Shown piece by piece: positions 45,526 to 59,009 of a DNA stretch of 64,000 nt. The stretch covers positions 406,001 through 470,000 of the forward strand of contig NZ_CP016953.1 in NCBI RefSeq assembly GCF_001708305.1, given 5' to 3'. The notes under the pieces were generated by a model. It saw only the letters and a list, made by a program, of their open reading frames with translations, was not told the DNA's origin and ran no database searches. The translations under genes were made by a program, and so were the position numbers. This stretch comes from Streptococcus himalayensis. GTDB taxonomy: Bacteria; Bacillota; Bacilli; Lactobacillales; Streptococcaceae. The number at the start of each line of letters is the position of its first letter. The stretch's first letter is position 1.

Positions 45526-45566
45526 AACCCCAGCTGGAAATTTATTTCTAGCTGGGGGTTTTATTT
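45526..45566 (+). terminator. galU terminator
   Basis: AACCCCAGCT-loop-AGCTGGGGGTT followed by TTATTT. Also serves the convergent pucR-like gene on the other strand. Confidence 0.9.
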
Positions 45567-47196
45567 AAAAATTATTTTGATACAAACGTAGAGCCAAATG
45601 AAGATTCATTAAATGATCGGTATTTTTCAAACTAATTTGTAACAACTGTTCAACTTTCCCCAAACGTGCCCGCAATGTATTCACATGAATAAATAGTCTC
45701 TGACTCGTAATTGTATAAGAAAAATGATTGTCGAAAAAAGTAGATACCGTCTCATATAACTCGGTCTTCATCTGTCTATCGTATGTGATTAAAGGTTGCA
45801 AAAATTGTTCAAATAATTCTTCAATGAACAAGTGATTGATGGCTCCCATATCATTTGTTACTAATTTTAAAACGCCAATATCTTGATACCGCTGAAGATG
45901 ACTGGAACACTGATTTGACTTTGCAAAACGAATAGCTTGTCTCGCTTCATCCAAACTCATTTTTAATTTCCAATAAGGTTTACTTGTGCTAATCCCAATA
46001 TAACAGTTATTGTGTTTAAGTGATTGTTGAACAATTTTTTGCAATACATCCAACTGATGAAACGCTCTCGAATAAGTTCCTCCCACTATGACGAGTTGTT
46101 GTTCCCGAGAAAAGAAGTGAAGATCGTTCAACTGTAAATCAGAATTCTTTATAGCAGTTATCAAATCCATACAAACTTGTTCAAAAACCAATGGATTTGA
46201 ATCGGGAATCAAATCTGAAACCACAATAATTTGCAAATTACTATCAAGATGTTTTCCCAGACCTAAACTATATCGTTCTAATAACGTCTCATCTGGACCT
46301 GTCATTTTTAATAACTCATCCAATATGACTGATTTTAAATAGACATTATTTTTCTGAAACTCTATTTCGAGAACTTGCTTTAATTCAAAAATCGATTGGA
46401 TATTTTCTAATTTAGCTAAAATAGTGGAATCCAACACATCGGTCTTATTGTCAGTTTTCAAGACAATATAATAAGCTAATCTTTGATGTTCATATACAGG
46501 AAAAAAGAAAAGATGATAACCCAATTTGTTTAAAAATAAACTTCTATAGCAATAACCATAGACAGTAGTATGATTCAAATCAACACCTACAGCATGAAAA
46601 CGTCCAATATTATTAGTACTAAACTTTTCAAAATATTCTTTCCAAGACCAATCATTACTAGAATCAATTACTTCCAATGTTTTTCCAACAATAGCTAAAG
46701 ATAGACCTGTTGTCTCATGGACAATCTGACAAAGATTATTCAGACTATGATTACGTGAAAAATAGCGGATAATTTGCTTAATAAATTTTTCTGATTCAAT
46801 AAGAGCCTTTGAATTTTGTACCAGCTCTGCTTTCTGAAAAGCAATAATGACATCGCTCCACGAAAAATCATTGTCAATTAAAATCAATGGAATATCATAG
46901 TATCTTAATAAATCAATAATATCCTCTGAAATATACTTATGATACTTCTTTTTTGATAAAATCGCGCTAACATTTTTATTTTTCAATATCTCAATAAAAT
47001 TTTTAGTGAAATGACTCGTCATAAATTTTCCTATAATCAGTAACTCACCTCCATTTAACCAGTCAGCAATTGTTGAAACATCCATAATATTGACTGATTT
47101 TAATTGTTTCTCCATACCTAGTTTGGTAGAAAAAATATCAGCAGATATCATGATATCTGAAGACTCTAAAGATTTTACCGTTAAATTTGATAACAT
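45565..47196 (-). CDS. PucR/CdaR-family transcriptional regulator, 543 aa
   Basis: Three parts: an N-terminal PucR domain (about residues 10-130, SVNIMDVSTIADWLNGGELLI), a GAF-like or sensor middle, and the C-terminal PucR helix-turn-helix with TVSTFFDNHFSYTITSQRLFIHVNTLRARLGKVEQLL. Such proteins usually activate neighbouring catabolic genes on binding a pathway intermediate; the founding member controls purine degradation in Bacillus. Divergent from the carbamoyltransferase operon, 120 bases apart, so it very probably regulates it. Confidence 0.88.
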   Translation of the reverse strand: MLSNLTVKSLESSDIMISADIFSTKLGMEKQLKSVNIMDVSTIADWLNGGELLIIGKFMTSHFTKNFIEILKNKNVSAILSKKKYHKYISEDIIDLLRYYDIPLILIDNDFSWSDVIIAFQKAELVQNSKALIESEKFIKQIIRYFSRNHSLNNLCQIVHETTGLSLAIVGKTLEVIDSSNDWSWKEYFEKFSTNNIGRFHAVGVDLNHTTVYGYCYRSLFLNKLGYHLFFFPVYEHQRLAYYIVLKTDNKTDVLDSTILAKLENIQSIFELKQVLEIEFQKNNVYLKSVILDELLKMTGPDETLLERYSLGLGKHLDSNLQIIVVSDLIPDSNPLVFEQVCMDLITAIKNSDLQLNDLHFFSREQQLVIVGGTYSRAFHQLDVLQKIVQQSLKHNNCYIGISTSKPYWKLKMSLDEARQAIRFAKSNQCSSHLQRYQDIGVLKLVTNDMGAINHLFIEELFEQFLQPLITYDRQMKTELYETVSTFFDNHFSYTITSQRLFIHVNTLRARLGKVEQLLQISLKNTDHLMNLHLALRLYQNNF

Positions 47197-47225
47197 AGTA
47201 TTTTCTCCTTTGTTTAAAGATACAA

Positions 47226-47239
47226 TGTAAACCCTTTCT
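47226..47239. promoter_or_regulatory. Candidate CcpA cre site
   Basis: TGTAAACCCTTTCT matches the catabolite-responsive element TGWAARCGNTWNCW except one position. It lies between pucR-like and the carbamoyltransferase gene, where CcpA could repress the cassette when sugar is available. Confidence 0.45.
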
Positions 47240-47280
47240 TTTTATATGATACCACAATATATTTTTTTAATCCTATCTTT

Positions 47281-47310
47281 TATAATAACATTATCAAATA
47301 AAAAGGAGTA
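47281..47310 (+). promoter_or_regulatory. -10 element and ribosome site of the carbamoyltransferase operon
   Basis: TATAAT at 47281-47286 without a good -35 match, as expected of an activator-dependent promoter, then AAAAAGGAG before the ATG at 47316. Confidence 0.5.
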
Positions 47311-47315
47311 AAGCC

Positions 47316-48254
47316 ATGAGAAATCGCTTTAAAGGAAAAGATTATCTTGCTTTCAAAGATATGACTAAGGAAGAAATTGAGTTCATTACAGATTTAAGTC
47401 TAGAATTCAAGAAAAAATGGACAGCTAAAGAGCCTCACGAATATCTAAAAGGTCAGGTGTGGGCTGCTCTATTTGAAAAAAATAGTACGCGAACACGAAA
47501 TGCCTTTGAGCGAGCTGCAGCAGACTTAGGTGTAAAAGTTGTCTATTTAAGACCGGATGAAATGCAAATGACACGTGGAGAACCTCTCAAAGATACTGCT
47601 CGAATTCTAGATCGCTATTTCGATGGATTATTCATTCGAACCTTTGGACATGAAATTGTCGAAGAGTGCTCCAAATGGATGCAAAATCCTGTCATAAATG
47701 GCTTGACTGCACTAGAACACCCTACTCAAGGAATTGCTGATTTGATGACTATCAAAGAGAAAAAAGGAGACTATAGAGGACTTAAGATGTGCTACTCAGG
47801 AAATCTTTATAACGTTGCTTATACAACTATGATTTTCTGTGCTACTCTCGGAATTCACTTATCAATCGCCTGTCCTGAAGGTATTGAACCAAATCATGAA
47901 ATACTAGAAGAAACTTTACGACGTGCAAAACAAAGTGGAGCAATCATTGAATTTACACAAGATTTTGATGCAGCTTTAAAGGATGCTGATATTGTTTACG
48001 GCATGTCACAGTATAGTATGGGACAGAGTGATGAAGAGATTGCTTTTTTAAAGGAAGCATTCAAACCTTATCAAATCACTATGGAAGCAATGAAAAAAGC
48101 AAAACCAGATGCCATATTCATGCACTGTCTTCCTGCGCATAGGGGAGAAGAAGTTACCGATGAAGTGATGGAATGCGCTCAGTCTGTCATCTTTGATGAA
48201 GGTGAAAATCGAATGCATTCGATAAAAGCTATTTTAGCAGCTGTAGCCAATTAA
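47316..48254 (+). CDS. Ornithine-carbamoyltransferase-like enzyme with altered substrate residues, 312 aa
   Basis: Carbamoyl-phosphate binding residues are intact: STRTR (57-61), HPTQ (135-138), HCLPA (270-274) and Arg299 in ENRMHSIKA. The amino-acid side differs from true ornithine transcarbamylase: where OTC has RNN, this has LYN (Tyr165 for the ornithine-contacting Asn), and where OTC has D-V-W-V-S-M-G this has M-S-Q-Y-S-M-G (Met230 for the Asp that holds the alpha-amino group). Ornithine is therefore unlikely to be the substrate. Shorter than ArcB. First gene of a cassette with a transporter, a deiminase-like hydrolase and a dehydrogenase; likely runs toward carbamoyl phosphate. Confidence 0.85.
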   Translation: MRNRFKGKDYLAFKDMTKEEIEFITDLSLEFKKKWTAKEPHEYLKGQVWAALFEKNSTRTRNAFERAAADLGVKVVYLRPDEMQMTRGEPLKDTARILDRYFDGLFIRTFGHEIVEECSKWMQNPVINGLTALEHPTQGIADLMTIKEKKGDYRGLKMCYSGNLYNVAYTTMIFCATLGIHLSIACPEGIEPNHEILEETLRRAKQSGAIIEFTQDFDAALKDADIVYGMSQYSMGQSDEEIAFLKEAFKPYQITMEAMKKAKPDAIFMHCLPAHRGEEVTDEVMECAQSVIFDEGENRMHSIKAILAAVAN

Positions 48255-48304
48255 TAAAACTATTTAAGTAAAAGAAATTCTATCTGGTAAACCTAGAGGA
48301 GGTC

Positions 48305-49813
48305 ATGATGGATGTCCAAGAAAAGAAAAAATTTAAATCTCCAAACACATATGTAATTATTTTCTTTGTATTATTATTTGTTGCTTTTTTAACTTGGTTT
48401 ATACCTGGAGGTGAATACTCTTATGATAAATCAGGAAGAGCTATTGCCAATTCATATAGACAAATCAATGCAAATCGTCAAGGATTATGGGATGTTATCA
48501 TGGCTCCTATTATCGGAATGGTGGGAAACGATAAAGTTTCTGGAGCTATTACAATATCCTTAAATGTTATGCTATTCGGTAGTTTCTTAGAAATGATGGA
48601 CGCAACTGGCGCAATTAATATTGCTCTAAAAAACGTTGCTAAAAAATGCCAAAAGAATTACTATGTTCTCATTACTGTACTCACTTTCCTCATGGGAATT
48701 TTTGGAACTGTCCAAGGGGCATATGAAGAAGGATTTGTCTATTTACTCATGTTTCTTCCCATCATTCTCTCTCTTGGATTGGATACGATTGTAGCACTCA
48801 TGATTGTTATATTTGGAACACAAGCTGGTTGTGCTGCATCTATCGTAAATCCATTTTCAACTGGTATTGCTTCAGGAATTGCTGGAATTAGTCCTGGAGA
48901 GGGAATCATATTTCGTACCTTAGCATTTTTTGTACTCCTGTCTTTCTGTTCTGCAATTATCTGTCTATATGCAAAAAAGGTCAAAGCACATCCTGAAATT
49001 TCCGTTCAATATTTTAGAAAAGAAAAAGATATTCAAGAATTTGCTCATGATCAAGGAGAGGAACAAACTCTAGACCAAAACCAAAAGAAAGTATTTGTCA
49101 TCTTTATACTTACTTTCACAATTATGATTCTTTCTTTGATCCCTTGGACATCTCTCAATAAAGAATGGACATTTTTTACAGATATAACTGAGTGGGCTAA
49201 TCAAAATACTGTTGTAAGTACTATATTAGGTAGTAGTCTTGTTCCTTTAGGGGATTGGTACTTTAACGAAATCAATGGTCTATTACTCGTTATGACTATC
49301 TTATCCGGTTACATCATGGGTTACGATATCGATAAGACGATACAAATTTTAATCAGAGGAGCTGCTGCACTTGTATCCACAGCATTTATTGTACCGCTTG
49401 CAAGAGGGATTCAAGTACTGATGACTAATGGTAGTATTACAGCGACTGTTCTAAACGCAACCGAAAAAACCTTAGGTTCATTACCTCCCGCTATGTTTAT
49501 ATTCGTATGCTTCTTAGTCTACATTATTTTAGCAACTTTTATTCCTAGTTCAACTGGACTAGCTGCAGCTACCATATCCATAATGGCTCCATTAGGTATT
49601 TTTGCTGGTATATCCGAAGCCAATATGGTCGTCATCTATAACTTTGCTCTAGGATTTGTAAAATTACTAGCACCAACCTCAATTATCGTTATGACCTGTA
49701 CGCAAGCTGTACATGTCAGTTACGGAGCTTGGATAAAAGCAACATGGAAATATGCTGCTCTATACTTTTCTATATTAATCCTATTACTTATGTTATCACT
49801 AGCCATTATCTAA
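48305..49813 (+). CDS. YfcC/ArcD-like membrane transporter (DcuC superfamily), 502 aa
   Basis: About twelve membrane segments. After TYVIIFFVLLFVAFLTWFIPGG come GAYEEGFVYLLMFLPIILSLG and TQAGCAASIVNPFSTGIASG, then a hydrophilic middle loop (residues 225-255) and ATFIPSSTGLAAATISIMAPL near the end. This is the C4-dicarboxylate/arginine-ornithine-like family often found beside deiminase and carbamoyltransferase genes, as uptake carrier or substrate/product exchanger. GAGGAGGTC precedes the ATG pair. Substrate not known; probably the same guanidino or ureido compound the cassette degrades. Confidence 0.87.
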   Translation: MMDVQEKKKFKSPNTYVIIFFVLLFVAFLTWFIPGGEYSYDKSGRAIANSYRQINANRQGLWDVIMAPIIGMVGNDKVSGAITISLNVMLFGSFLEMMDATGAINIALKNVAKKCQKNYYVLITVLTFLMGIFGTVQGAYEEGFVYLLMFLPIILSLGLDTIVALMIVIFGTQAGCAASIVNPFSTGIASGIAGISPGEGIIFRTLAFFVLLSFCSAIICLYAKKVKAHPEISVQYFRKEKDIQEFAHDQGEEQTLDQNQKKVFVIFILTFTIMILSLIPWTSLNKEWTFFTDITEWANQNTVVSTILGSSLVPLGDWYFNEINGLLLVMTILSGYIMGYDIDKTIQILIRGAAALVSTAFIVPLARGIQVLMTNGSITATVLNATEKTLGSLPPAMFIFVCFLVYIILATFIPSSTGLAAATISIMAPLGIFAGISEANMVVIYNFALGFVKLLAPTSIIVMTCTQAVHVSYGAWIKATWKYAALYFSILILLLMLSLAII

Positions 49814-49827
49814 TAAAGGAGAAAAAT

Positions 49828-50685
49828 ATGACTAATCGTATCTATGTCAGCAATGCTACTAACCAATTAAAAAAAGTAATTGTTTGCTCCCCAAAATATT
49901 ATAAGTTTAACGGTATCAACGAAATTACAAAATCATGGATGGAGAAAGGAGAAACAGAACAGAATGACCTAATGGTTCAAGAATGGGAAACTCTAATCAA
50001 TGCCTATAAAGCTAATGGTGTTGAAGTCATCGAAATGGAACCTCAATCCGAATTGGAAGTACAGACTTTTGCTCGAGATTTTGGTGCCATGATTAAAGAA
50101 GGAGCAATCATCGGTAAATTTCGACATCCTGCACGCCAAAATGAAACACAAGTGTACGAACAAAAACTAAAAGAACTAGGTATTCCGATTGTTGCTCGCT
50201 GCAATGCTGGCTGTTTTGAAGGAGGCGATTTCTGGATGATTGATGAACATACTATTGCCCTTGGATTAGTAGATCGTACTGATCAAGCTGGAGTTGACAA
50301 TTTACGAGAACAATTGCAAAAATTCGGTTATACAGTTGTAGGGGTTCCTGTTGCACCTGAACACTTACACTTAGATATGTGTTTTAATATTGTTGCTCCA
50401 AATATATGTCTAGCAGCTAAAAGTGTGTTGCCATTCTGGTTTATCAAAATGTTAGAAAGACGTCACTTCACTATTATTGATGTTCCGGAAGAACTCATTG
50501 AAAAACACGGATGCAATGTACAAGCTTTGGGTAACAATACAGTATTAGGAATAGCCAATAATGTAACGGTCAATGAAGCATTAGAAAATGCTGGTGTAAC
50601 GGTCATTAAATTACCATTACAACAAATTTTAAAAGCTGGAGGAGGTCCTCACTGCATGACTTATCCAGTAGAACGTAGTTATTAG
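49828..50685 (+). CDS. Arginine-deiminase/DDAH-like amidinohydrolase, 285 aa
   Basis: Guanidine-modifying (pentein) fold. The expected residues are in QTFARDFG (Arg83, Asp84), CFEGGDFW (Glu131, Asp134), LHLDMCF (His181) and the catalytic Cys276 in GGGPHCMTYPVER. Such enzymes hydrolyse a guanidino group to a ureido group plus ammonia or an amine. At 285 aa it is shorter than arginine deiminase (about 410), nearer to dimethylarginine hydrolase. Start MTNRIYV with AAGGAG upstream; a longer frame lies in the transporter gene. Its ureido product would suit the carbamoyltransferase two genes upstream. Confidence 0.85.
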   Translation: MTNRIYVSNATNQLKKVIVCSPKYYKFNGINEITKSWMEKGETEQNDLMVQEWETLINAYKANGVEVIEMEPQSELEVQTFARDFGAMIKEGAIIGKFRHPARQNETQVYEQKLKELGIPIVARCNAGCFEGGDFWMIDEHTIALGLVDRTDQAGVDNLREQLQKFGYTVVGVPVAPEHLHLDMCFNIVAPNICLAAKSVLPFWFIKMLERRHFTIIDVPEELIEKHGCNVQALGNNTVLGIANNVTVNEALENAGVTVIKLPLQQILKAGGGPHCMTYPVERSY

Positions 50686-50699
50686 AAAAGGAGATACGG

Positions 50700-51680
50700 A
50701 TGAAAATTGTCATTACTGATTATCCGGACTCCATGATGCCAAATCATGATTACGAAATACAAATGCTTAAGCAAGGTCTAGGAGAGAATACAAATATTGT
50801 TATTTATGAATATAAAGATAATCGTGAAGAATTTTATCAAGTCATTAAAGACGCAGATGCTATTTTAACGGCTTTTACACCGATAGATGCACAAGCTATT
50901 CGCCATGCTGAAAAATTAAAAGTCATTTCTATCAACGCTACTGGCTATGATAATGTTGATTTACAAGCCGCAAATCAACGAAAAATTGGTGTCTGTCCAG
51001 TAGGAGAATATTGTACTAAAGATGTGGCAGAATTCACAATTAGCATGATGATGATTCTCGTTAAAAATATAAAATACTATCAATACGATATCGAAAAACA
51101 CTATCAATGGAGATATAATTGTACAGAACCTAATCAGCGACTTTCTGATATGACTCTTGGAATCTGTGGTTTAGGAAAAATAGGAAAAATGGTTGCTAAA
51201 AAAGCTTTAGGACTTGATATGAAAGTCATTGCTTGTGATCCATTTATAGAACCACCTTCAGATTTAAATGTGAAACTTGTTTCCAAAGAAGAACTGTTTG
51301 AACAGGCAGATATCATCACCAACAATATGAATTTAAATGAAACTAACTATAATTATTTTGACTTAACAGCTTTCAAACAAATGAAAAAGCAGCCCTATTT
51401 TATTAATATGGGACGTGGTGCTTGTGTAGTTGAACATGAATTAGTAACAGCCTTAGATTTAGGACTTTTAAAAGGAGCAGCTTTAGATGTCTTAAAAGAT
51501 GAAACACCAACTTTAAAATCCCATCCATTGATTGGACGAGAAAATGTTCATATTAGTCCACATGCAGCATTTTATTCGACTTCTTCATTGAAAGATCTGC
51601 AAAGAATCTCTACAGAAAATATCGTTAACTATTTAAATGGATATAAAGATAAAGTGTTTAAACTCGTTAGTGACTACTGA
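50700..51680 (+). CDS. D-isomer-specific 2-hydroxyacid dehydrogenase, 326 aa
   Basis: NAD-dependent oxidoreductase of the D-2-hydroxyacid family (phosphoglycerate or lactate type). Rossmann motif GICGLGKIGKMVAKKA (about residue 154), catalytic Arg in NMGRGACVVEHEL, Glu in DVLKDETP and His in ISPHAAFYS. 14 bases after the hydrolase gene, with AAAGGAG. No regulatory ACT domain, so not biosynthetic SerA. In this setting it may reduce or oxidise an oxo/hydroxy acid left after the nitrogen is removed; the substrate is unknown. Confidence 0.87.
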   Translation: MKIVITDYPDSMMPNHDYEIQMLKQGLGENTNIVIYEYKDNREEFYQVIKDADAILTAFTPIDAQAIRHAEKLKVISINATGYDNVDLQAANQRKIGVCPVGEYCTKDVAEFTISMMMILVKNIKYYQYDIEKHYQWRYNCTEPNQRLSDMTLGICGLGKIGKMVAKKALGLDMKVIACDPFIEPPSDLNVKLVSKEELFEQADIITNNMNLNETNYNYFDLTAFKQMKKQPYFINMGRGACVVEHELVTALDLGLLKGAALDVLKDETPTLKSHPLIGRENVHISPHAAFYSTSSLKDLQRISTENIVNYLNGYKDKVFKLVSDY

Positions 51681-51916: not shown

Positions 51917-53307
51917 TGATATACTCCCCATATAGTAGACAGTGAAAAAACAAACATTCACTAAATACTATAAGGGGAGTTTTCCTATGTCCAAAAGAAG
52001 TCCAAAATCAATAGAAGAAAAGTTAGAAATTGTTTGCTTATTACTTAACCAAAAACAGTCGCTTACCCAACTCAGTAAACAATATCAGGTCGATAATCAA
52101 ACAATCCAGTCTTGGAAAATGAAATATGAGAAGTCCGGTATCGACGGTCTTAAGGAAAGTCGAACTCGGAAACACTACCCGTCTGAGTTAAAAGAACAAG
52201 CTGTTCAAGACTATCTAGCTGGTAAAGGTTCCTTAAGAACGATCTGTTCAAACTATCATATCTCTGACGCTTATGTTCTCAGAAGTTGGATAAAACGGTA
52301 TACTAGTGGGAAAGAATTAACATCCACAGGTAAAGGACAAAGCCATATGAAGCAAGGACGCAAGACCACCTTTGAAGAACGACTTGAGATTGTCAACTAC
52401 ACCATCGCTCACGAGAAAAACTATCCAGCTGCCATTGATAAGTTTGGTGTCTCCTACCAACAAGTTTATTCATGGGGACGTAAGTTTGAGAATGAGGGAG
52501 CTCAAGGGCTGGTAGATCGTAGAGGAAAAGGACTAGAAAGCAAGCCAAATCTCACTGAGACGGAAGAACTTCAACTCAAAATCAAACAACTGGAAGAACG
52601 GAATCGTTATTTAGAAATGGAGGTGGGTCTGCTAAAAAAGTTGGAGGAAATAAAACGGCGAAACCGTCGCTAAGAGCGGGAAAGCACCTAGAGAAGTTCC
52701 AAGTTATTAAGGATTATCATAATGAACACCCAGATAGTCTTATCTCTATCTTATGCCAGATTCTGAAGGTCTCACGTTCAGGCTACTATAAGTGGCTCAA
52801 TCATGATGAAACAACCTCTGAGAAAGAAAACAAGAAATTGATGAAGAAGATTCAGGAACTCCATAAACAGCACAAGGGCATCCTAGGTTACCGTCGCATG
52901 ACAACATTCATTAACCGTCGATTAGCCACCAACTACAATAAGAAACGGATTCGTCGGCTGATGGGTATTCTTGGCATCCAAGTTATTCGTCGTGTAAGGC
53001 ATGCTTGCACGAAAGCTGGTAATCGATTTTACGCTGAGAATCTTCTCAATCGGGATTTTACTGCGACAGCGCCGAATCAGAAATGGTGCACAGATGTCAC
53101 CTACTTACAATACGGTCTCGGCGCCAAGGCTTATTTGAGTGCAATCAAGAACCTCTATGATGGCTCGATTATCGTCTATGAGATTGATCACAACAATGAT
53201 AATCTCTTGGTTATGAAGACCATTTCAGAACAACTGCAAATAGAAAAAGTTCCAGAGTCAATCAAGACTTTGGAACTTTTTCAATATACCTCGTTATGGG
53301 GCAGTTA
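51917..53307 (+). mobile_element. IS3-family (IS150-group) insertion sequence, right end lost
   Basis: Contains overlapping orfA and orfB in -1 register with a slippery A-AAA-AAG at 52634-52640. The left end lies near 51917 (gatatactccccatatagtag). The orfB part runs directly into ISL3 sequence near 53308, so the 3' third and the right inverted repeat are gone. Confidence 0.8.
51987..52673 (+). CDS. IS3-family transposase OrfA (IS150 type), 228 aa
   Basis: Two helix-turn-helix units: KLEIVCLLLNQKQSLTQLSK, then RLEIVNYTIAHEKNYPAAID, each followed by a basic linker, and a C-terminal leucine-rich coil (TETEELQLKIKQLEERNRYLEMEVGLLKKLEE). Start MSKRSPKSIEEKLE with GGGGAG upstream. The slippery heptamer lies over codons 216-218; frameshifted ribosomes would make OrfAB. 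Confidence 0.9.
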   Translation: MSKRSPKSIEEKLEIVCLLLNQKQSLTQLSKQYQVDNQTIQSWKMKYEKSGIDGLKESRTRKHYPSELKEQAVQDYLAGKGSLRTICSNYHISDAYVLRSWIKRYTSGKELTSTGKGQSHMKQGRKTTFEERLEIVNYTIAHEKNYPAAIDKFGVSYQQVYSWGRKFENEGAQGLVDRRGKGLESKPNLTETEELQLKIKQLEERNRYLEMEVGLLKKLEEIKRRNRR

Positions 53308-53323
53308 CGATACAATAGGATAG
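52634..53323 (+). pseudogene. IS3-family transposase OrfB, truncated
   Basis: In the -1 frame after the slippery site. It contains HTH_21 (KHLEKFQVIKDYHNEH, SRSGYYKWLNHDE, HKGILGYRRMTTFINRRL) and the first catalytic Asp in APNQKWCTDVTYL. The next Asp and Glu of the DDE triad are missing because the gene stops after ELFQYTSLWGSYDTIG at the ISL3 junction. Inactive as a transposase. Confidence 0.88.
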
Positions 53324-53720
53324 CCGTAAACTCAGTGACAAGCGGTTTTACCGCCCTACATTTCGCATGCATTTGACCAATAAGGAAATCTTAGACAAGC
53401 TCCTATCCTACTCAGATGAGTTACGACACCATTATGAACTCTATCAACTTCTTTTATTCCATTTCCAAGAGAAAAACTCAGATCATTTCTTTGACCTAAT
53501 TGAACAAGAAATAGCCACTGTTAACCCTATTTTCCAGACGGTATTTAAGACGTTTCTAAAGGATAAGGACAAGGTTTTAAACGCTTTGGAATTGCCTTAT
53601 TCCAACGCTAAATTGGAAGCTACCAATAATCTTATCAAAGTCATTAAGCGTAATGCCTTTGGATTTCGGAAGATGAAAACTTCAAAAAGCGGATTTTGAT
53701 TGCCATCAACATCAAAAAAG
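53308..53720 (+). pseudogene. C-terminal fragment of an ISL3-family transposase
   Basis: From a tac-aa-aggatag block onward it matches the intact transposase gene at 54660-55070 almost base for base (MHLTNKEILDKLLSYSDELR... FRTFLKDKDK-type region), but a small deletion after NAFGFR shifts the frame and stops it at 53699. It ends exactly where the next, complete ISL3 copy starts. Confidence 0.88.
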
Positions 53721-55125
53721 GGCTCTATAATATCTGTAGTGGGTAAATCCACTGTGGAAATTATGGAGCCTTTTTCAGTGTAGAAAAAAAGTCCCATATG
53801 ACCTATAATGAAAAGCGACAAAACCATCATTTAGAAAGACTCATATGGAACAACTAAATCTTATCACAAATTTTCTCAAAATGAAAGACAAAAATATCAC
53901 GATCACTAATGAATGCGACATGGGAACACACTTAGAACTCCACGGTCACTTGGATTACACAGCCCCTAAATGCCCTTCCTGCAAGGGACAAATGGCTAAG
54001 TATGACTTCCAGAAAGCCTCTAAAATCCCCTACTTAGAAACTGCTGGCTACCCGCTACTTATCCGCCTTCGAAAGCGTCGTTTCAAGTGCAAGGAATGTG
54101 GGAAAATAGCGGTCGCTGAAACTCCTATTGTTAAGAAGAACCATCAAATCTCTGTCGCTGTCAACCAGAAAATCGCACAATTACTCATCGAAAAGCAAGC
54201 AATGACACATATCGCACACAGACTTTCCATTTCAACATCTACAGTTATTCGAAAACTCAATGAGTTTAAGTTTGAAACGGATTGGGCTAAGCTTCCAGAA
54301 GTCATGTCCTGGGATGAGTATGCCTTCAAGAAAGGGAAAATGAGCTTTATCGCTCAAGATTTTGACACAAATAACATCATCGCTATCCTTGATGGAAGAA
54401 CGCAGGCGGTCATCCGAAATCACTTCCTACGATACCCTAGACAGGTCAGAAACCGCGTTAAATTCATCACTATGGACATGTTTAGCCCCTATTATGCCCT
54501 CGCTAAGAAGCTTTTTCCTTACGCTAAAATTGTTCTTGATCGCTTCCACATTGTGCAATATCTCAGCCGTGCTATGAACCGTGTCCGCATACAAATCATG
54601 AATGCTTTTGACCGCAAATCGCATGAATACAAGACGCTCAAACGCTACTGGAAACTGGTACAACAGGATAGTCGTAAACTCAGTGACAAGCGGTTTTATC
54701 GCCCTACATTTCGCATGCATTTGACCAATAAGGAAATCTTAGACAAGCTCCTATCCTACTCAGATGAATTACGACAACATTATGAACTCTATCAACTTCT
54801 TTTATTCCATTTCCAAGAGAAGAACTCAGATCATTTCTTTGACCTAATTGAACAAGAAATAGCCACTGTTAACCCTATTTTCCAGACGGTATTTAAGACG
54901 TTTCTAAAGGATAAGGACAAGGTTTTAAACGCCTTGGAATTGCCTTATTCCAACGCTAAATTGGAAGCTACCAATAATCTTATCAAAGTCATTAAACGAA
55001 ATGCCTTTGGTTTCAGGAACTTTGAAAACTTCAAAAAGCGGATTTTGATTGCCATCAATATCAAAAAAGAGAAGACCAATTTGGTCCTCTCTAGGTGTTA
55101 GCTGACATCTACCCACTACAGTGAG
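53721..55125 (+). mobile_element. Complete ISL3-family insertion sequence (IS1193/IS1167-like)
   Basis: The left end, GGCTCTATAAT, forms a hairpin with ATTATGGAGCC at about 53760-53770 around ctgtagtgggtaaat. The right end carries the inverse core atctacccactacag (about 55107-55121). One full transposase gene inside. The last bases of the right repeat match poorly, so the right limit is approximate. Confidence 0.85.
53845..55101 (+). CDS. ISL3-family transposase, 418 aa, intact
   Basis: N-terminal zinc ribbon (CPSC, then CKECGK, residues about 38-84), HTH region VNQKIAQLLIEKQAMTHIAH, and the DDE domain with VMSWDEYAFKKGKMSF, ITMDMFSPYYALAKKLFP, KIVLDRFHIVQYL and the Glu in AKLEATNNLIKVIKRNAFGFRN. 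Starts MEQLNLITNFLKMK. Length normal for the family, no disruption, so likely active. A second copy begins at 63621. Confidence 0.93.
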   Translation: MEQLNLITNFLKMKDKNITITNECDMGTHLELHGHLDYTAPKCPSCKGQMAKYDFQKASKIPYLETAGYPLLIRLRKRRFKCKECGKIAVAETPIVKKNHQISVAVNQKIAQLLIEKQAMTHIAHRLSISTSTVIRKLNEFKFETDWAKLPEVMSWDEYAFKKGKMSFIAQDFDTNNIIAILDGRTQAVIRNHFLRYPRQVRNRVKFITMDMFSPYYALAKKLFPYAKIVLDRFHIVQYLSRAMNRVRIQIMNAFDRKSHEYKTLKRYWKLVQQDSRKLSDKRFYRPTFRMHLTNKEILDKLLSYSDELRQHYELYQLLLFHFQEKNSDHFFDLIEQEIATVNPIFQTVFKTFLKDKDKVLNALELPYSNAKLEATNNLIKVIKRNAFGFRNFENFKKRILIAINIKKEKTNLVLSRC

Positions 55126-55511: not shown

Positions 55512-58500
55512 CTAATATACTTTTTTATTTTTGTTTCTCTTCATAGTAACCAGTCCTAGACTTGATGCAACAGCTCCCAGAGCCATTAGAGCGACATTTC
55601 CTTTTGCCCCTGTTTCTGGCAATTTTTGATATCTTTCTTTACGAGAGTAAGATTGAGTCTGTACTTCACTTCCTTCTACACGTCCAGGCTCTACAGGAGC
55701 TGGCACTGGTTTAGCTGGCTTAGGATTTTCTACTGGAGGGAGCACTTCCTTACCGTTGTTATCAGCGTTTTCTTCCTCTTCTTCCTTCACCAAGGTAGAT
55801 AAATCAAGTGTTGGAAGGTCATCACGGAAGGCAGGTGCTCCAAGATTGAAGTTTGGTTTTTTAGCTGGTTTTTCCACCTCTATCTCAGAGTCTGGTTTAG
55901 TTTCTGGAGCAGTTGGTTCTTTTGGTTTGTCGTCAGGTTTCACCTCAGGTTGGGTAGGTTCGTTCTTCTCTTTTTCCGCCTGTGCTTTTTCAGCTTGCTC
56001 TTTGGCTAGTTTTTCTGCTGCTTCCTTCTCACGAGCCAAGCGGGCTGCTTCAGCCTTAACTTTTGCTTCTTCTTCCGCCTTGATTTTTGCTTCAGCTTCT
56101 AGGCGGGCTTTCTCGGCAGCGTCTTTTTCTGCTTGTGCTTTAGCTTCGGCTTCTTTGCGTTCCTTTTCCAAGCGGTCTGCCTCAGCTTTAGCCTCGGCTT
56201 CTTTGCGTTCCTTTTCCAAGCGGTCTGCCTCGGCTTTAGCTTTGGCTTCTTTTGCAGCTGTTTCTTTAGCGAGGCGTTCTGCTTCTAGTCTAGCTGCTTC
56301 TTCCTTTGCTTTCTTTTCCGCTTCAAGGCGAGCCTTCTCTGCTAACTCTTTTGCGAGGCGTTCTGCTTCGGCTTTCGCTTTAGCTTCGGCTGCTAGTTTT
56401 TCAGCCTCTGCCTTTGCTTTGGCATCTTGCTCTGCTTTGAGACGAGCTTCTTCTGCCTTGCGTTCTGCTTCAAGGCGTTCTTTTTCTAAACGGTCCGCTT
56501 CGGCTTTAGCTGCTAGGTAGTCCTGATAAGCCTTATACTGGCTTTCTACCACCTTCAAGTTGTTCACTGCCTTGTCATAGTTAGCTTGTGCTGCATTCTT
56601 TTCTTGTGTAAGGGTTGCGACTTGAGCTTTCGCTATGTCAAGTGCCTGTTTTGCCTGTTCTGCTTCTCTTTGAAGAGGTTGTAATTCTGCCTGTAGAGTA
56701 GCTAGTTTTTGGGCGTTGGCTTCTGCTGTAGCAAGAGTTGTTTGAGCAGCCTTGAGGGCAGACTCAGCCTGTGTGAGTTCCGTTTGAGCTGTCTTAAGAG
56801 CCGCTTTCTTCTCAAGAAGCGCAGCTTCTTTATCCGCAAGGGTGCGATTGGCATCTGTAAGAACAGTTTGTGCCTGTGTAAGAGCTTGACCTTTAGAAGC
56901 TACACTCGCTTGACTGGTTGCGACATCTGCCTGTGCCAAAGTGAGGGCTTTTTGTGCAGCGGTGAGAGTTGCTTCTTTTTGGGCTAGGTCTGTCTTAGCG
57001 GTCGCAAGTTCAGCTTGAGCAGCCCCTACAGCACCTTGCGCTGTTGCAAGGTTCGCTTTTGCCGTGTCTAATGCTCGCTGAGCGGCTGGTGTTTGCACAG
57101 GAGTAGCCTCAGCTTTTGCTAGTTCACTTTGGGCTGTCCGGAGACTAGCTTGTGCTCTTTGGAGTTTAGACTCTGCATTTTCCAAAGCAGCTTGTGCAGG
57201 AGCTAGTTGACTGTGAGCAGTCGCTAATTTCCCTTCTGCTGTCGCTACTTTAGCTTCCAAGGCTTCTTTTGAAATGGGGTTGGCAATTGGGGTACCGGCA
57301 TACTCTGGTTTAGCTGGACCATCTGTAAATTCAAGCAGGTAACCTGAGTTCTTTGAACCGGTATATCCAGACAAACCAAAGTACTGGTCTCCTTTACGGG
57401 CTTCCCGGAACTTAGCATCTAGGTTGGTAAGGGAGATGGCATGACCGAAATGTTGGAATTGCAAATAATCAACAAGCACCATGTGTTTTATAAACAAAGC
57501 TACTTGACCTTTTAACTCTGTCATCGTATAATTGTCATTAAAGATATCTGTTTGGGGGGACAAGTCTTCGTCTAAAGCTTGTCCTGTCCGATCTTTTACT
57601 CGGATGATGGCTGGGATATCATGTCCTTTTTCCGAATCCCAGTCATCCGCCAAGTATTCTTTGGCAATCATATCCGCAATCTTCATAGACCCTGTTGAAA
57701 TGAGGGCTTTTGAAGCAATGCCCATTTGTGCCCGCAAATCATTAATGATTGTTTGAGCGAATTGAGCTAATTCTAAGCGATCGGCATCCGTTAGGTCATT
57801 TAACCCATTCCCGTTTTTAGAAATCACGACTCGTTGATTAGACTCAATAGCATCAAGAGATGTGCGCAATTTTCGCAAATATTTCCCATCGATACTCTCT
57901 TTGTTTAAGCGACGAGACTCCGCTTCCAACACCTTCCAAATCCGGTTCATCTCGGTGGTGTCCTTGGTCACATAGCGGGCTTCGTAGAATTTCACCAAGT
58001 TTTCTTTATAGGTGTCGGACAGTTTGATGGTAAAGATAGAACCAAGGGCTTGTTTTGCCTTATCTAGTTCTGCTTGAGCAGATGAGATGTGATGTTGGAT
58101 TGCTGTAAGATTGCTGCTTGCGGCAGTTTTTTCATGTTCAGCAGTTGAGACTTGGGCTTGGCTTGTTGCTACTTGATTTTGAGCAGTGGTGATGGCAGCT
58201 GCTCGTTTGACATCTGCTGCTTTGGCATCAGCTACCTTTGCTTGAGCCGTTGCCACTTCATTTTCTTTAGCAGTCACCTCTTGAGTAGCTTGGGCTACTT
58301 TTTTTTCTGCCTCAGCTACCGTTGATTTAGCTGTGTTGACTTGGTTTTGAGCAGTTGTTGCAGTAGCTTGAGCCGTCTTTTCATCAGCGAGGTCTTGAGC
58401 GAGTTGCTTTTCTGCCTGTGCTTTAGCAGTGGTAGCATTTGCTACTGCCTTCTCTGCGTTTTGAACAGCTGTTGTGCTTCCTGCTACTTCATTTTCAAGG

Positions 58501-58964
58501 GTGCTAACAGCCATTTGATTGTTCTTAACTTGGTCTTGCTTTGTCGTAACTGCTTGCGTAGCCGTTGCTACTTCTTTCTCAGCTGTAGGAACAGGTGTTG
58601 CCGCCGCTTCATGTTCTGCGGTAGTCACTTCCGCCTCTTTTGCTTCAAGAGCTTGACTGGCACTGGTATAGCTTGCTTCAGCGGCAGGAAGCGTTTGTTC
58701 TGCGGTGGCAAGATTGCTTTGTGCTTGGTTGAGGGCAGACTCAGCAGTGGCTACTTGATCTTTTGCTTGATTGACATCGTTTTCTGTTACTTCGGTCGTT
58801 GCATTAGTAACAACCGCAGCATTGTTTGCTGCTTCATCCGCATGCACTTCTACCGTTGCGACAGTAGTTAGCATTCCAATCGCAAGAACCCCTACTGCTC
58901 CGTAGGCTTTCAGTTTGCGGATAAACCCATGGCTTTTGTTAGTTGTGTGTGTATTTGTTGACAT
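55512..58964 (-). CDS. LPXTG-anchored coiled-coil surface protein, SEC10/PgrA surface-exclusion type, 1150 aa
   Basis: Signal region [20 protein letters not shown], cleaved after ATVEVHA. Residues 30-310 and 580-830 are long Ala/Gln/Thr-rich coiled coils; between them a globular domain (about 315-560) with [26 protein letters not shown] [17 protein letters not shown] and [16 protein letters not shown] resembles PgrA/SEC10 surface-exclusion proteins of conjugative plasmids. Residues 850-1020 are KAEA/RLEKE repeats, then a Pro-rich wall region and LPETGAKG, hydrophobic segment, KRNKNKK. Divergent from an XRE regulator. May act in adhesion or block of mating; unproven. Confidence 0.88.
56147..56242 (-). 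repeat. Two 48-bp tandem repeats in the surface-protein gene
   Basis: Two nearly identical 48-base units encode [16 protein letters not shown]. Period is 16 residues, fitting the helical register; copy number may vary between strains. Confidence 0.75.
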
Positions 58965-59009
58965 ATCTCTGTACCTCGTTTGTTCCAAAAACTATTTTTT
59001 AAGGCTATT

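Follow-up and report, generated by a model that had tools for sequence, protein, structure and literature searches.

The window analysed here, a stretch of 64,000 nucleotides from Streptococcus himalayensis, carries a four-gene cassette which probably encodes an energy module resembling the arginine deiminase (ADI) pathway, acting on a guanidino carboxylate that has no alpha-amino group. Residues contacting the alpha-amino group are changed in both its carbamoyltransferase (CTase) and its ADI/DDAH-superfamily hydrolase and the carboxylate-binding Arg residues are kept, which points to such a substrate, and the linked D-2-hydroxyacid dehydrogenase favours a 5-guanidino-2-oxo- or 2-hydroxyvalerate. 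Judged from sequence, the two unrelated enzymes appear to have lost this contact in parallel, and the cassette appears to be a substrate-shifted relative of the ADI/agmatine deiminase type of pathway.

Organization and distribution of the cassette

The OTC-family CTase (47316-48254, 312 aa, OTCace_N and OTCace domains), a YfcC/DcuC-family carrier (48305-49813, 502 aa, DcuC domain), the hydrolase (49828-50685, 285 aa, DDAH_eukar/ADI domains) and the D-2-hydroxyacid dehydrogenase (50700-51680, 326 aa, 2-Hacid_dh and 2-Hacid_dh_C domains) all lie on the forward strand, separated by 50, 14 and 14 bases. ORF and domain scans bore out the original prediction of four tightly spaced genes in both location and family, and the catalytic residues it described as intact were found in the CTase (STRTR, HPTQ, HCLP) and the hydrolase (Asp84, Glu131, His181, Asp183 and Cys276, invariant in 34 aligned sequences). 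The ORF finder starts the hydrolase at a TTG (49729); the ATG at 49828 is preceded by a Shine-Dalgarno-like aaaggag. To the right, forward-strand transposase ORFs and fragments occupy 51942-55101, among them an ISL3-type transposase, an ORF matching HTH_Tnp_1 along with other HTH domains, and a short ORF whose rve match falls just under the cut-off.

A gene for a PucR-type transcriptional regulator (45565-47196, reverse strand, PucR and HTH_30 domains) diverges from the cassette across 119 bases (47197-47315) presumed to contain the promoter/operator. A cre-like 16-mer at 47225-47240 with two mismatches is at chance level (94 matches with at most two mismatches in the window versus 97.6 expected) and so gives no evidence for a cre/CcpA site in these 119 bases, and promoter-like sites were also at chance (28 vs 27.8). 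The scan found a single intrinsic-terminator-like stem-loop between 45400 and 52000 (45528-45557, forward strand; shuffled sequences average 2.5), which separates galU from the regulator gene. The regulator's PucR domain, and to some degree the dehydrogenase, would suit a purine/allantoin-type ureido pathway (ureidoglycolate/oxalurate), but none of the five genes scanned belongs to an allantoin enzyme family and the CTase keeps the OTC-type ligands Asn166, Met235 and Leu272, making this reading scarcely credible. The AllFGH oxamic transcarbamylase is, to our knowledge, not OTC-like. Excerpts of PMC11326118 identify oxamic transcarbamylase as AllFGH.

Neighbourhood comparison found the gene order again in many genera, so that it is neither a chance arrangement nor peculiar to a single strain, the point on which a neighbourhood search had been proposed. 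Relatives were found among lactic acid bacteria, Clostridia, Coriobacteria/Eggerthellaceae and Klebsiella, and one is carried by a conjugative plasmid of Enterococcus (E. mundtii); the four genes and their relatives form a real, mobile cassette. With protein clusters each named from a single representative, the hydrolase cluster (cluster 0) is present in 66 of 67 loci, the exception (L080, also outside the hydrolase residue table) having been lost through ORF selection, and the regulator's cluster is represented in 33 of 67. At least some of L045-L054 duplicate named loci, and these were used in one comparison step only. Plasmid searches returned hydrolase matches in 123 records, with more than 60% identity only in the E. 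mundtii plasmid, whose CTase copy is annotated argF. Six hydrolase patterns found no related hydrolase in viral contigs, and in open-licence PMC papers, a scope which leaves absence unproven, we found no description of the cassette and no biochemistry.

Substrate contacts in the carbamoyltransferase and hydrolase

Excerpts of PMC4581275 place the ornithine site at N167, D231, S235, M236 and L274, with D227 in the putrescine enzyme, and DxxxSMG is described as the ornithine-binding motif (PMC4581275, PMC3474736). The window CTase departs from this motif, reading MSQYSMG with Met230 where OTC has its ornithine-binding Asp (E. coli D231), and in the alignment it keeps Lys55, Asn166, Ser234, Met235 and Leu272. 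The Asp is found in none of 43 cassette CTases (replaced by Met in 22, Asn in 19, Lys in one and Val in one) versus all 69 sampled control OTC-family CTases (68 from the same order and the host ArcB; 11 with a PTC-type loop). Controls were sampled regardless of their own gene neighbourhoods, with ATCase-like low scorers outside the sample, and the cassette CTases were collected via hydrolase homology rather than via the Asp position. Met230 and the corresponding hydrolase residue, Val78, were placed by alignment and by residue spacing taken from excerpts of PMC4581275 and PMC3474736. In a tree of 110 CTases, from which the divergent L105 and truncated L116 copies were omitted (both are within the 43 counted for Asp), the cassette label requires two changes and the starred branches force two. 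The second clade (nine Eggerthellaceae/Coriobacteriaceae rows and one from Lachnospiraceae) lies among ArcB-like enzymes, and its motif YTNVWAAM means that both the D and the S are replaced. It appears that the CTase was recruited to the cassette in two separate events, the second involving an ArcB-like enzyme with an Asp to Asn change; the 43 cassette CTases amount to about two independent events. The original prediction of a non-ornithine CTase is probably the stronger for an Asp missing from 43 of 43 and lost twice.

There are counterpoints. The retained Asn166 corresponds to human Asn199, which is said to contact the carboxyl as well as the alpha-amino group (PMC6098936), and the window's clade also retains Ser234. 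Despite having lost the Asp, DPTCase and DBTCase still bind substrates with an alpha-amino group, probably by means of HDLP (PMC4581275). A DPTCase/DBTCase identity was rejected, since 42 of the 43 cassette CTases read HCLP at the motif, where L116 is truncated, and some other compensation for the lost Asp is possible in these enzymes. An agmatine/putrescine reading was also rejected: the carboxylate ligands are kept, and a YSMG loop, FEKNSTRT and a TIGR04384 score of 263.4 against a cut-off of 500 bits do not fit a putrescine carbamoyltransferase.

The hydrolase carries Val78 where ADI has an Asn that in the Mycoplasma arginini enzyme (N155) contacts the amino/carboxylate end of arginine (PMC3474736), and it retains Arg103 and Arg150, by alignment the carboxylate ligands. 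In the 43 hydrolases with a linked CTase this position is V (31), Y (7), L (3), I (1) or W (1), compared with N, D or H in 19 of 25 rows without one; the residue also tracks phylogeny, and both carboxylate Arg are present in every row. Four loci that have no linked CTase show Tyr here as well. ADI also touches the amino group through two main-chain carbonyls (PMC3474736), contacts that are invisible to alignment.

Taken as they stand, the CTase data could also describe a redundant arginine/citrulline pathway of a drifted-loop OTC and an arginine deiminase: the window CTase exceeds the OTCase equivalog cut-off (TIGR00658, 345.7 vs 280.85 bits), OTCases are the nearest PDB folds to its AF2 model (pLDDT 88.3), Asn166 and Ser234 are kept, and the E. 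mundtii copy bears an argF annotation. Such a pathway is nonetheless very unlikely given the two independent Asp losses and the parallel loss of the hydrolase contact, and because the host owns arcA, arcB and arcC. Its separate ADI operon holds the one arcC of the genome (829306-830235), ArcA (601.4 bits) and ArcB (412.6 bits, TIGR00658) above NCBIfam cut-offs, and a YfcC-type gene whose product is 35% identical to the cassette carrier, so an arginine role for the cassette would be redundant.

Membership of the hydrolase in the ADI/DDAH superfamily is supported by PF19420 and PF02274 matches above cut-off, the invariant residues and the fold: the nearest PDB folds to its AF2 model (pLDDT 95.9) are NnhA, ArgZ/AgrE, AGAT, ADI and DDAH (Foldseek TMq 0.73-0.86 at 16-23% identity among the 50 matches listed). 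It does not belong to ArcA or DDAH by NCBIfam models (55.1-91.4 bits vs cut-offs of 300-489.1). Methylarginine salvage, in which a true DDAH would convert ADMA to dimethylamine and citrulline, the latter being cleaved by the CTase, draws on the higher Pfam score for DDAH_eukar than for ADI (128 vs 102.5 bits), but all three of the DDAH equivalog models hit fall far under cut-off (best 91.4 of 300 bits), the HxD motif is ADI-type, and ADMA and citrulline retain an alpha-amino group, to which the enzymes have lost contacts; we regard it as highly improbable.

Proposed pathway and candidate substrates

In the pathway we propose for an alpha-amino-free guanidino carboxylate, the YfcC carrier would import the substrate, probably in exchange for product, and the hydrolase, given its fold and intact catalytic residues, would convert the guanidino to a ureido group with release of ammonia. 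The CTase, running in the catabolic direction, would then yield an omega-amino acid and carbamoyl phosphate, from which carbamate kinase would generate ATP. The cassette was said to contain no carbamate kinase, which is true of the window; relatives differ, about one-third having the gene alongside (its cluster is present in 23 of 67 loci), and its absence here is explained by their carrying one and by the host arcC, the single copy that the proposed genome search recovered, so that the arc operon would supply the enzyme. The dehydrogenase would interconvert the oxo and hydroxy forms, and reduction would regenerate NAD+ in a fermenter. Deimination followed by phosphorolysis of a guanidino acid other than arginine, as originally interpreted, thus appears strengthened by the contact losses and the two CTase recruitments; the accompanying substrate panel narrows, since loss of the alpha-amino contacts in both enzymes argues against homoarginine, methylarginines and canavanine, and conserved carboxylate ligands argue against agmatine, with guanidinobutyrate remaining, as do argininate and ketoarginine.

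As the substrate we tentatively favour, at somewhat less than an even chance, a 2-oxo/2-hydroxy C5 compound, namely 5-guanidino-2-oxovalerate (2-ketoarginine) and/or 5-guanidino-2-hydroxyvalerate (argininate, probably D). The window dehydrogenase has both 2-Hacid_dh domains, and Arg/Glu/His motifs read in the alignment that we take to be its catalytic residues. Within the hydrolase residue table, a same-cluster dehydrogenase accompanies 31 of 32 loci with CTase and YfcC and none of the 10 CTase loci without YfcC; two YfcC-type cassettes (L068 and the E. mundtii plasmid) have none near the hydrolase. Five of six dehydrogenases from CTase-less hydrolase loci group with those of the cassette (support 91/89, not starred), and most CTase-less loci having the dehydrogenase also have aminotransferases.

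The main rival, if an unlikely one, is an omega-guanidino acid without substituents, either 4-guanidinobutyrate or another such as 5-guanidinovalerate, for which the same logic would lead through the ureido acid and phosphorolysis to GABA and carbamoyl phosphate, leaving the dehydrogenase a side job. Guanidinobutyrate has the carboxylate and no alpha-amino group, its unsubstituted C2 would fit the non-polar Val and Met, and Y-type sister hydrolases lie near a GABA transaminase (L098, above cut-off), an aminotransferase with a hydantoinase/carbamoylase (L102, above cut-off) and a putrescine aminotransferase (L105). Against it, GABA and guanidinobutyrate both lack a 2-oxo/2-hydroxy group on which the dehydrogenase of those 31 loci could act, and the window cassette has no GABA transaminase. 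APC-type sister cassettes are without the dehydrogenase, which means that a 2-oxo/2-hydroxy substrate does not hold throughout, and 4-guanidinobutyrate is the likelier substrate of the sister cassette.

More speculatively than the choice of a 2-oxo/2-hydroxy C5 substrate, the cassettes may represent an undescribed mode of fermentation, spread horizontally, in which arginine-derived 2-oxo/2-hydroxy guanidino acids (2-ketoarginine, D-argininate) are the fuel. A single compact cassette would then tie substrate-level phosphorylation, in which carbamoyl phosphate gives ATP, to regeneration of NAD+ by the dehydrogenase, its CTase would have a new transcarbamylase specificity (5-amino-2-hydroxyvalerate) arisen at least twice from OTC ancestors, and the sister cassette would handle 4-guanidinobutyrate likewise.

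Relation to known pathways and wider significance

Like the ADI pathway (ArcA-ArcB-ArcC-ArcD), the cassette combines a guanidino hydrolase, an OTC-family CTase and a YfcC-type carrier in the same chemical logic, with carbamate kinase in some relatives. It differs in the changed alpha-amino contacts of both enzymes, in a shorter hydrolase far under the ArcA cut-off, and in adding the dehydrogenase and PucR-type regulator, the window copy also having no kinase. The agmatine deiminase pathway (AguA, AguB, AguC, AguD) is a comparable shift of ADI logic to another substrate with its own CTase and carrier. Its PTCase retains the Asp (D227), with another loop and a Gln in FxQxSxRT (PMC4581275), whereas the cassette CTase has a YSMG loop, has lost the Asp and keeps the Lys and the carboxylate ligands. 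DPTCase and DBTCase are also OTC-branch CTases without the loop Asp; they differ in having HDLP, against HCLP in the cassette where readable, and their antibiotic gene clusters are biosynthetic. The hydrolase shares its fold and Cys/His/Glu catalytic set with DDAH, ArgZ/AgrE, ADI, AGAT and NnhA, but has Val for the ADI Asn and scores under all the group NCBIfam cut-offs.

Parallel contact loss and the second, ArcB-like recruitment make specificity directly testable with a short substrate panel. Argininic acid and alpha-keto-delta-guanidinovaleric acid (2-ketoarginine) are described in excerpts of PMC8745165 as uraemic solutes handled by gut bacteria, and a bacterial energy pathway using either would, if true, be a new link to these solutes. 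In carrier genomes the CTase is liable to be counted as one more argF and the hydrolase to receive the generic label 'arginine deiminase family protein', which is the case for the E. mundtii plasmid, so that models of arginine use in lactic acid bacteria, gut Coriobacteria and Klebsiella may err for such genomes.

Gene content, distribution and mobility of the cassette

The four-gene set is a real, mobile cassette. All four ORFs were located on the forward strand where the original prediction had placed them, with intergenic gaps of 50, 14 and 14 bases: an OTC-family carbamoyltransferase (CTase, 47316-48254), followed by a YfcC/DcuC carrier (48305-49813), a hydrolase of the guanidino-modifying type (49828-50685) and, last, a D-2-hydroxyacid dehydrogenase (50700-51680). 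A PucR-type regulator gene (45565-47196) is divergent from the cassette, and transposase genes of at least two kinds (51942-55101) lie 3' of it. The source genome is one 2.28 Mb contig, and the named genomes closest to it point to Streptococcus. Hydrolase matches at 1e-20 were obtained in 23 of 395 genomes of the order (source genome counted), representing 16 of 80 genera, and nine other genomes of the order carry a hydrolase 72-79% identical to the window's; a close CTase (E <= 1e-120) occurs in 2 of the 197 genomes within the genus, source genome counted. A scan of named genomes rendered 58 hydrolase loci; the closest loci are from S. didelphis, L. jensenii, S. halichoeri, Vagococcus and Enterococcus, with further ones in Schaedlerella, Klebsiella, Gordonibacter, Eggerthella, Collinsella, Slackia, Serratia and Clostridium. 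The E. mundtii conjugative plasmid pLDW-8 (L196, NZ_CP018062.1 61026-75877) carries PucR-CTase-YfcC-hydrolase, annotated as argF and 'arginine deiminase family', and no dehydrogenase gene is among the annotated genes of that stretch. The regulator and CTase genes were not found in the galU-flanking stretches covered for 29 other genomes of the genus (those that yielded a locus among 40 searched), 15 of which share a downstream protein that appears rhomboid-like.

In the window, the stretch 53367-53699 is similar to a portion of the ISL3-type transposase at 53845-55101. A long Ala-rich repetitive ORF (55512-58988, reverse strand), with an LPETG-like end recognized by eye and zero matches in a Pfam scan at 1e-5, probably encodes a cell-wall surface protein. 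The Listeria aquatica locus L116 (5447-11768) has a short CTase, with kinase and PucR-like genes each split into two ORFs; the copy is either decaying or misassembled.

Substrate-binding residues of the hydrolase and carbamoyltransferase

The AF2 model of the hydrolase (pLDDT 95.9) matches the fold of NnhA, ArgZ/AgrE, AGAT, ADI and DDAH. In ADI, as described in PMC3474736, Asn155 (M. arginini) and two main-chain carbonyls meet the amino end of arginine, the M. penetrans equivalent being Asn198, six residues ahead of Asp204, and two Arg bind the carboxylate. Our alignment places Val78 of the window hydrolase at this Asn position, and Asn in the host ArcA. Of the 43 hydrolase rows with a linked CTase, 31 have V as this key residue, 7 have Y, 3 L, 1 I and 1 W; of the 25 rows that lack a linked CTase, 10 have N, 5 D, 4 H, 4 Y and 1 V, the remaining row being unread. 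That V row and the unread row are L072 and L108, whose contigs end near the cassette, and the L072 genome apparently has, on another contig, a CTase sharing 86% identity with that of the window. Both Arg residues, as well as the Cys, Glu, His and first Asp, are retained in all rows where readable, and the Asp of HxD is missing from L062 only. The retained Arg pair and replaced Asn thus suggest intact recognition of the carboxylate but a changed amino end.

The ornithine site of OTCases is described as N167, D231, S235, M236 and L274, PTCase using D227 (PMC4581275). The window CTase has N166, M230, S234, M235 and L272, and retains the Lys of FxKxSxRT. The 43 cassette CTases have N (19), M (22), K (1) or V (1) at the Asp position and never D, which is present in 69/69 controls. 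These were the host ArcB and 68 order-search loci (the 28 best outside cassettes and 40 hand-spread to E ~1e-37), selected by sequence score, whatever their own gene neighbours, and from above the ATCase-like low scorers. The PTC-type YGL loop occurs in 11 of the 69, all with Asp; since the ornithine alpha-amino position is an ammonium in putrescine, Asp tracks a charged amine in these controls. The window CTase fails the OTC motif test yet clears the OTC profile cut-off, and it fails the PTC tests made. The Asp of HDLP, the alternative used by DPTCase and DBTCase, is absent, the motif being HCLP in 42/43 cassette CTases and L116 being truncated. Some transcarbamylase clades are described as of unknown function (PMC4581275).

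In a tree of 110 CTases (the 43 cassette rows minus L105 and L116, plus the 69 controls), for which the program warned that some long branches meet, the cassette label takes two changes, two being forced by starred branches. The first clade has 31 rows, including the window; the second has 10 (Eggerthellaceae, Coriobacteriaceae and one Lachnospiraceae), lies within a starred group holding host ArcB, is just 38-42% identical to the window's CTase, and has the loop YTNVWAAM, an otherwise ArcB-like motif in which N replaces D and A replaces S. As Asp is absent from both clades, two recruitments converged on its loss, and the evidential weight is that of two events, not 43. A lost alpha-amino contact is argued against by the window's Asn166, which is kept and is the counterpart of human OTC Asn199, said to contact the carboxyl group as well as the alpha-amino group (PMC6098936), and by Ser234, retained across the window's CTase clade. 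Judged by aligned side chains, which do not show the main-chain contacts of the hydrolase, these two unrelated enzymes from a single cassette would both differ at the amino end, with recognition of the carboxylate preserved. At L105 (10769-14859), a CTase with a PKCWPSL loop lies beside a second, divergent hydrolase (key residue Trp) and two kinase-cluster ORFs.

Carbamate kinase and the proposed pathway

ORFs of 67 loci (the window, 8 others and the 58 from the named scan) were clustered, each cluster being named by the HMM match of one representative. Clusters recovered were hydrolase (66), CTase (43), dehydrogenase (40), YfcC (35), PucR (33), carbamate kinase (23), sodium:solute symporter (15), APC permease (11) and M20-like protein (10). 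The kinase, absent from the window and present in 23/67 loci, is therefore an optional cassette member. The original prediction proposed searching the rest of the genome for arcC, and one was found (829306-830235), the only carbamate kinase above the family cut-off. Its operon encodes ArcA, ArcB and ArcC proteins that each exceed their NCBIfam cut-offs; the YfcC-type gene after these arc genes is 35% identical to the window's YfcC. CTase-linked loci are mainly of two types, one (the window's) with YfcC and dehydrogenase, the other having an APC permease but no dehydrogenase. In a third group, which lacks the CTase, ABC transporters, aminotransferases and the M20-like protein are frequent.

Judged from its sequence, the cassette would work in like manner to the ADI and agmatine deiminase pathways. 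The substrate would enter via YfcC, and the hydrolase, by its fold and residues, would convert guanidino to ureido plus ammonia. The CTase would then convert the ureido acid and phosphate to an amino acid and carbamoyl phosphate, from which ATP could be generated by the carbamate kinase of the arc operon, or by a cassette-adjacent kinase in some relatives. The dehydrogenase would perform redox at C2, probably an NADH-dependent reduction. A description of the cassette was not found in open-licence PMC literature. An 'agmatine deiminase operon' of Eggerthella lenta is described as not induced by agmatine and perhaps serving a related compound (PMC10234575).

Dehydrogenase and candidate substrates

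The dehydrogenase cluster is present in 31/32 loci with CTase and YfcC and in 0/10 CTase loci without YfcC; neither L068 nor the E. mundtii plasmid has it. Among six dehydrogenases taken from CTase-less loci, five group with the 34 cassette rows (support 91/89, unstarred), away from two unrelated ones and L106, and most CTase-less loci carrying such dehydrogenases have aminotransferases. This grouping, with aminotransferases nearby, makes a C5 2-oxo acid substrate common to both kinds of locus plausible. The sister Y-type hydrolases, with Tyr replacing the ADI Asn, neighbour a GABA transaminase (L098), a hydantoinase/carbamoylase and aminotransferase (L102) and a putrescine aminotransferase (L105), which point to GABA; aldehyde dehydrogenase is also found in this set (L098, L102, L105, L097). 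Given these two contexts, different substrates are proposed: the Y-type substrate is likely 4-guanidinobutyrate, and that of the window's V type is tentatively read as 5-guanidino-2-oxo/2-hydroxyvalerate. If the hydroxy acid has the D configuration, we infer that its OH would face away from the L-amino pocket, in keeping with the non-polar Val and Met.

A third hydrolase group (L055-L058, L104, L106, L107, L113 and L115) has Asn as its key residue, with His in L057. Most of its loci encode an M20-like protein of 540-580 aa, under the cut-off for Pfam M20/M28 and perhaps RocB-like, often with aminotransferases, an Fe-alcohol dehydrogenase and a member of the cassette's dehydrogenase cluster. 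This group may be a separate arginine route.
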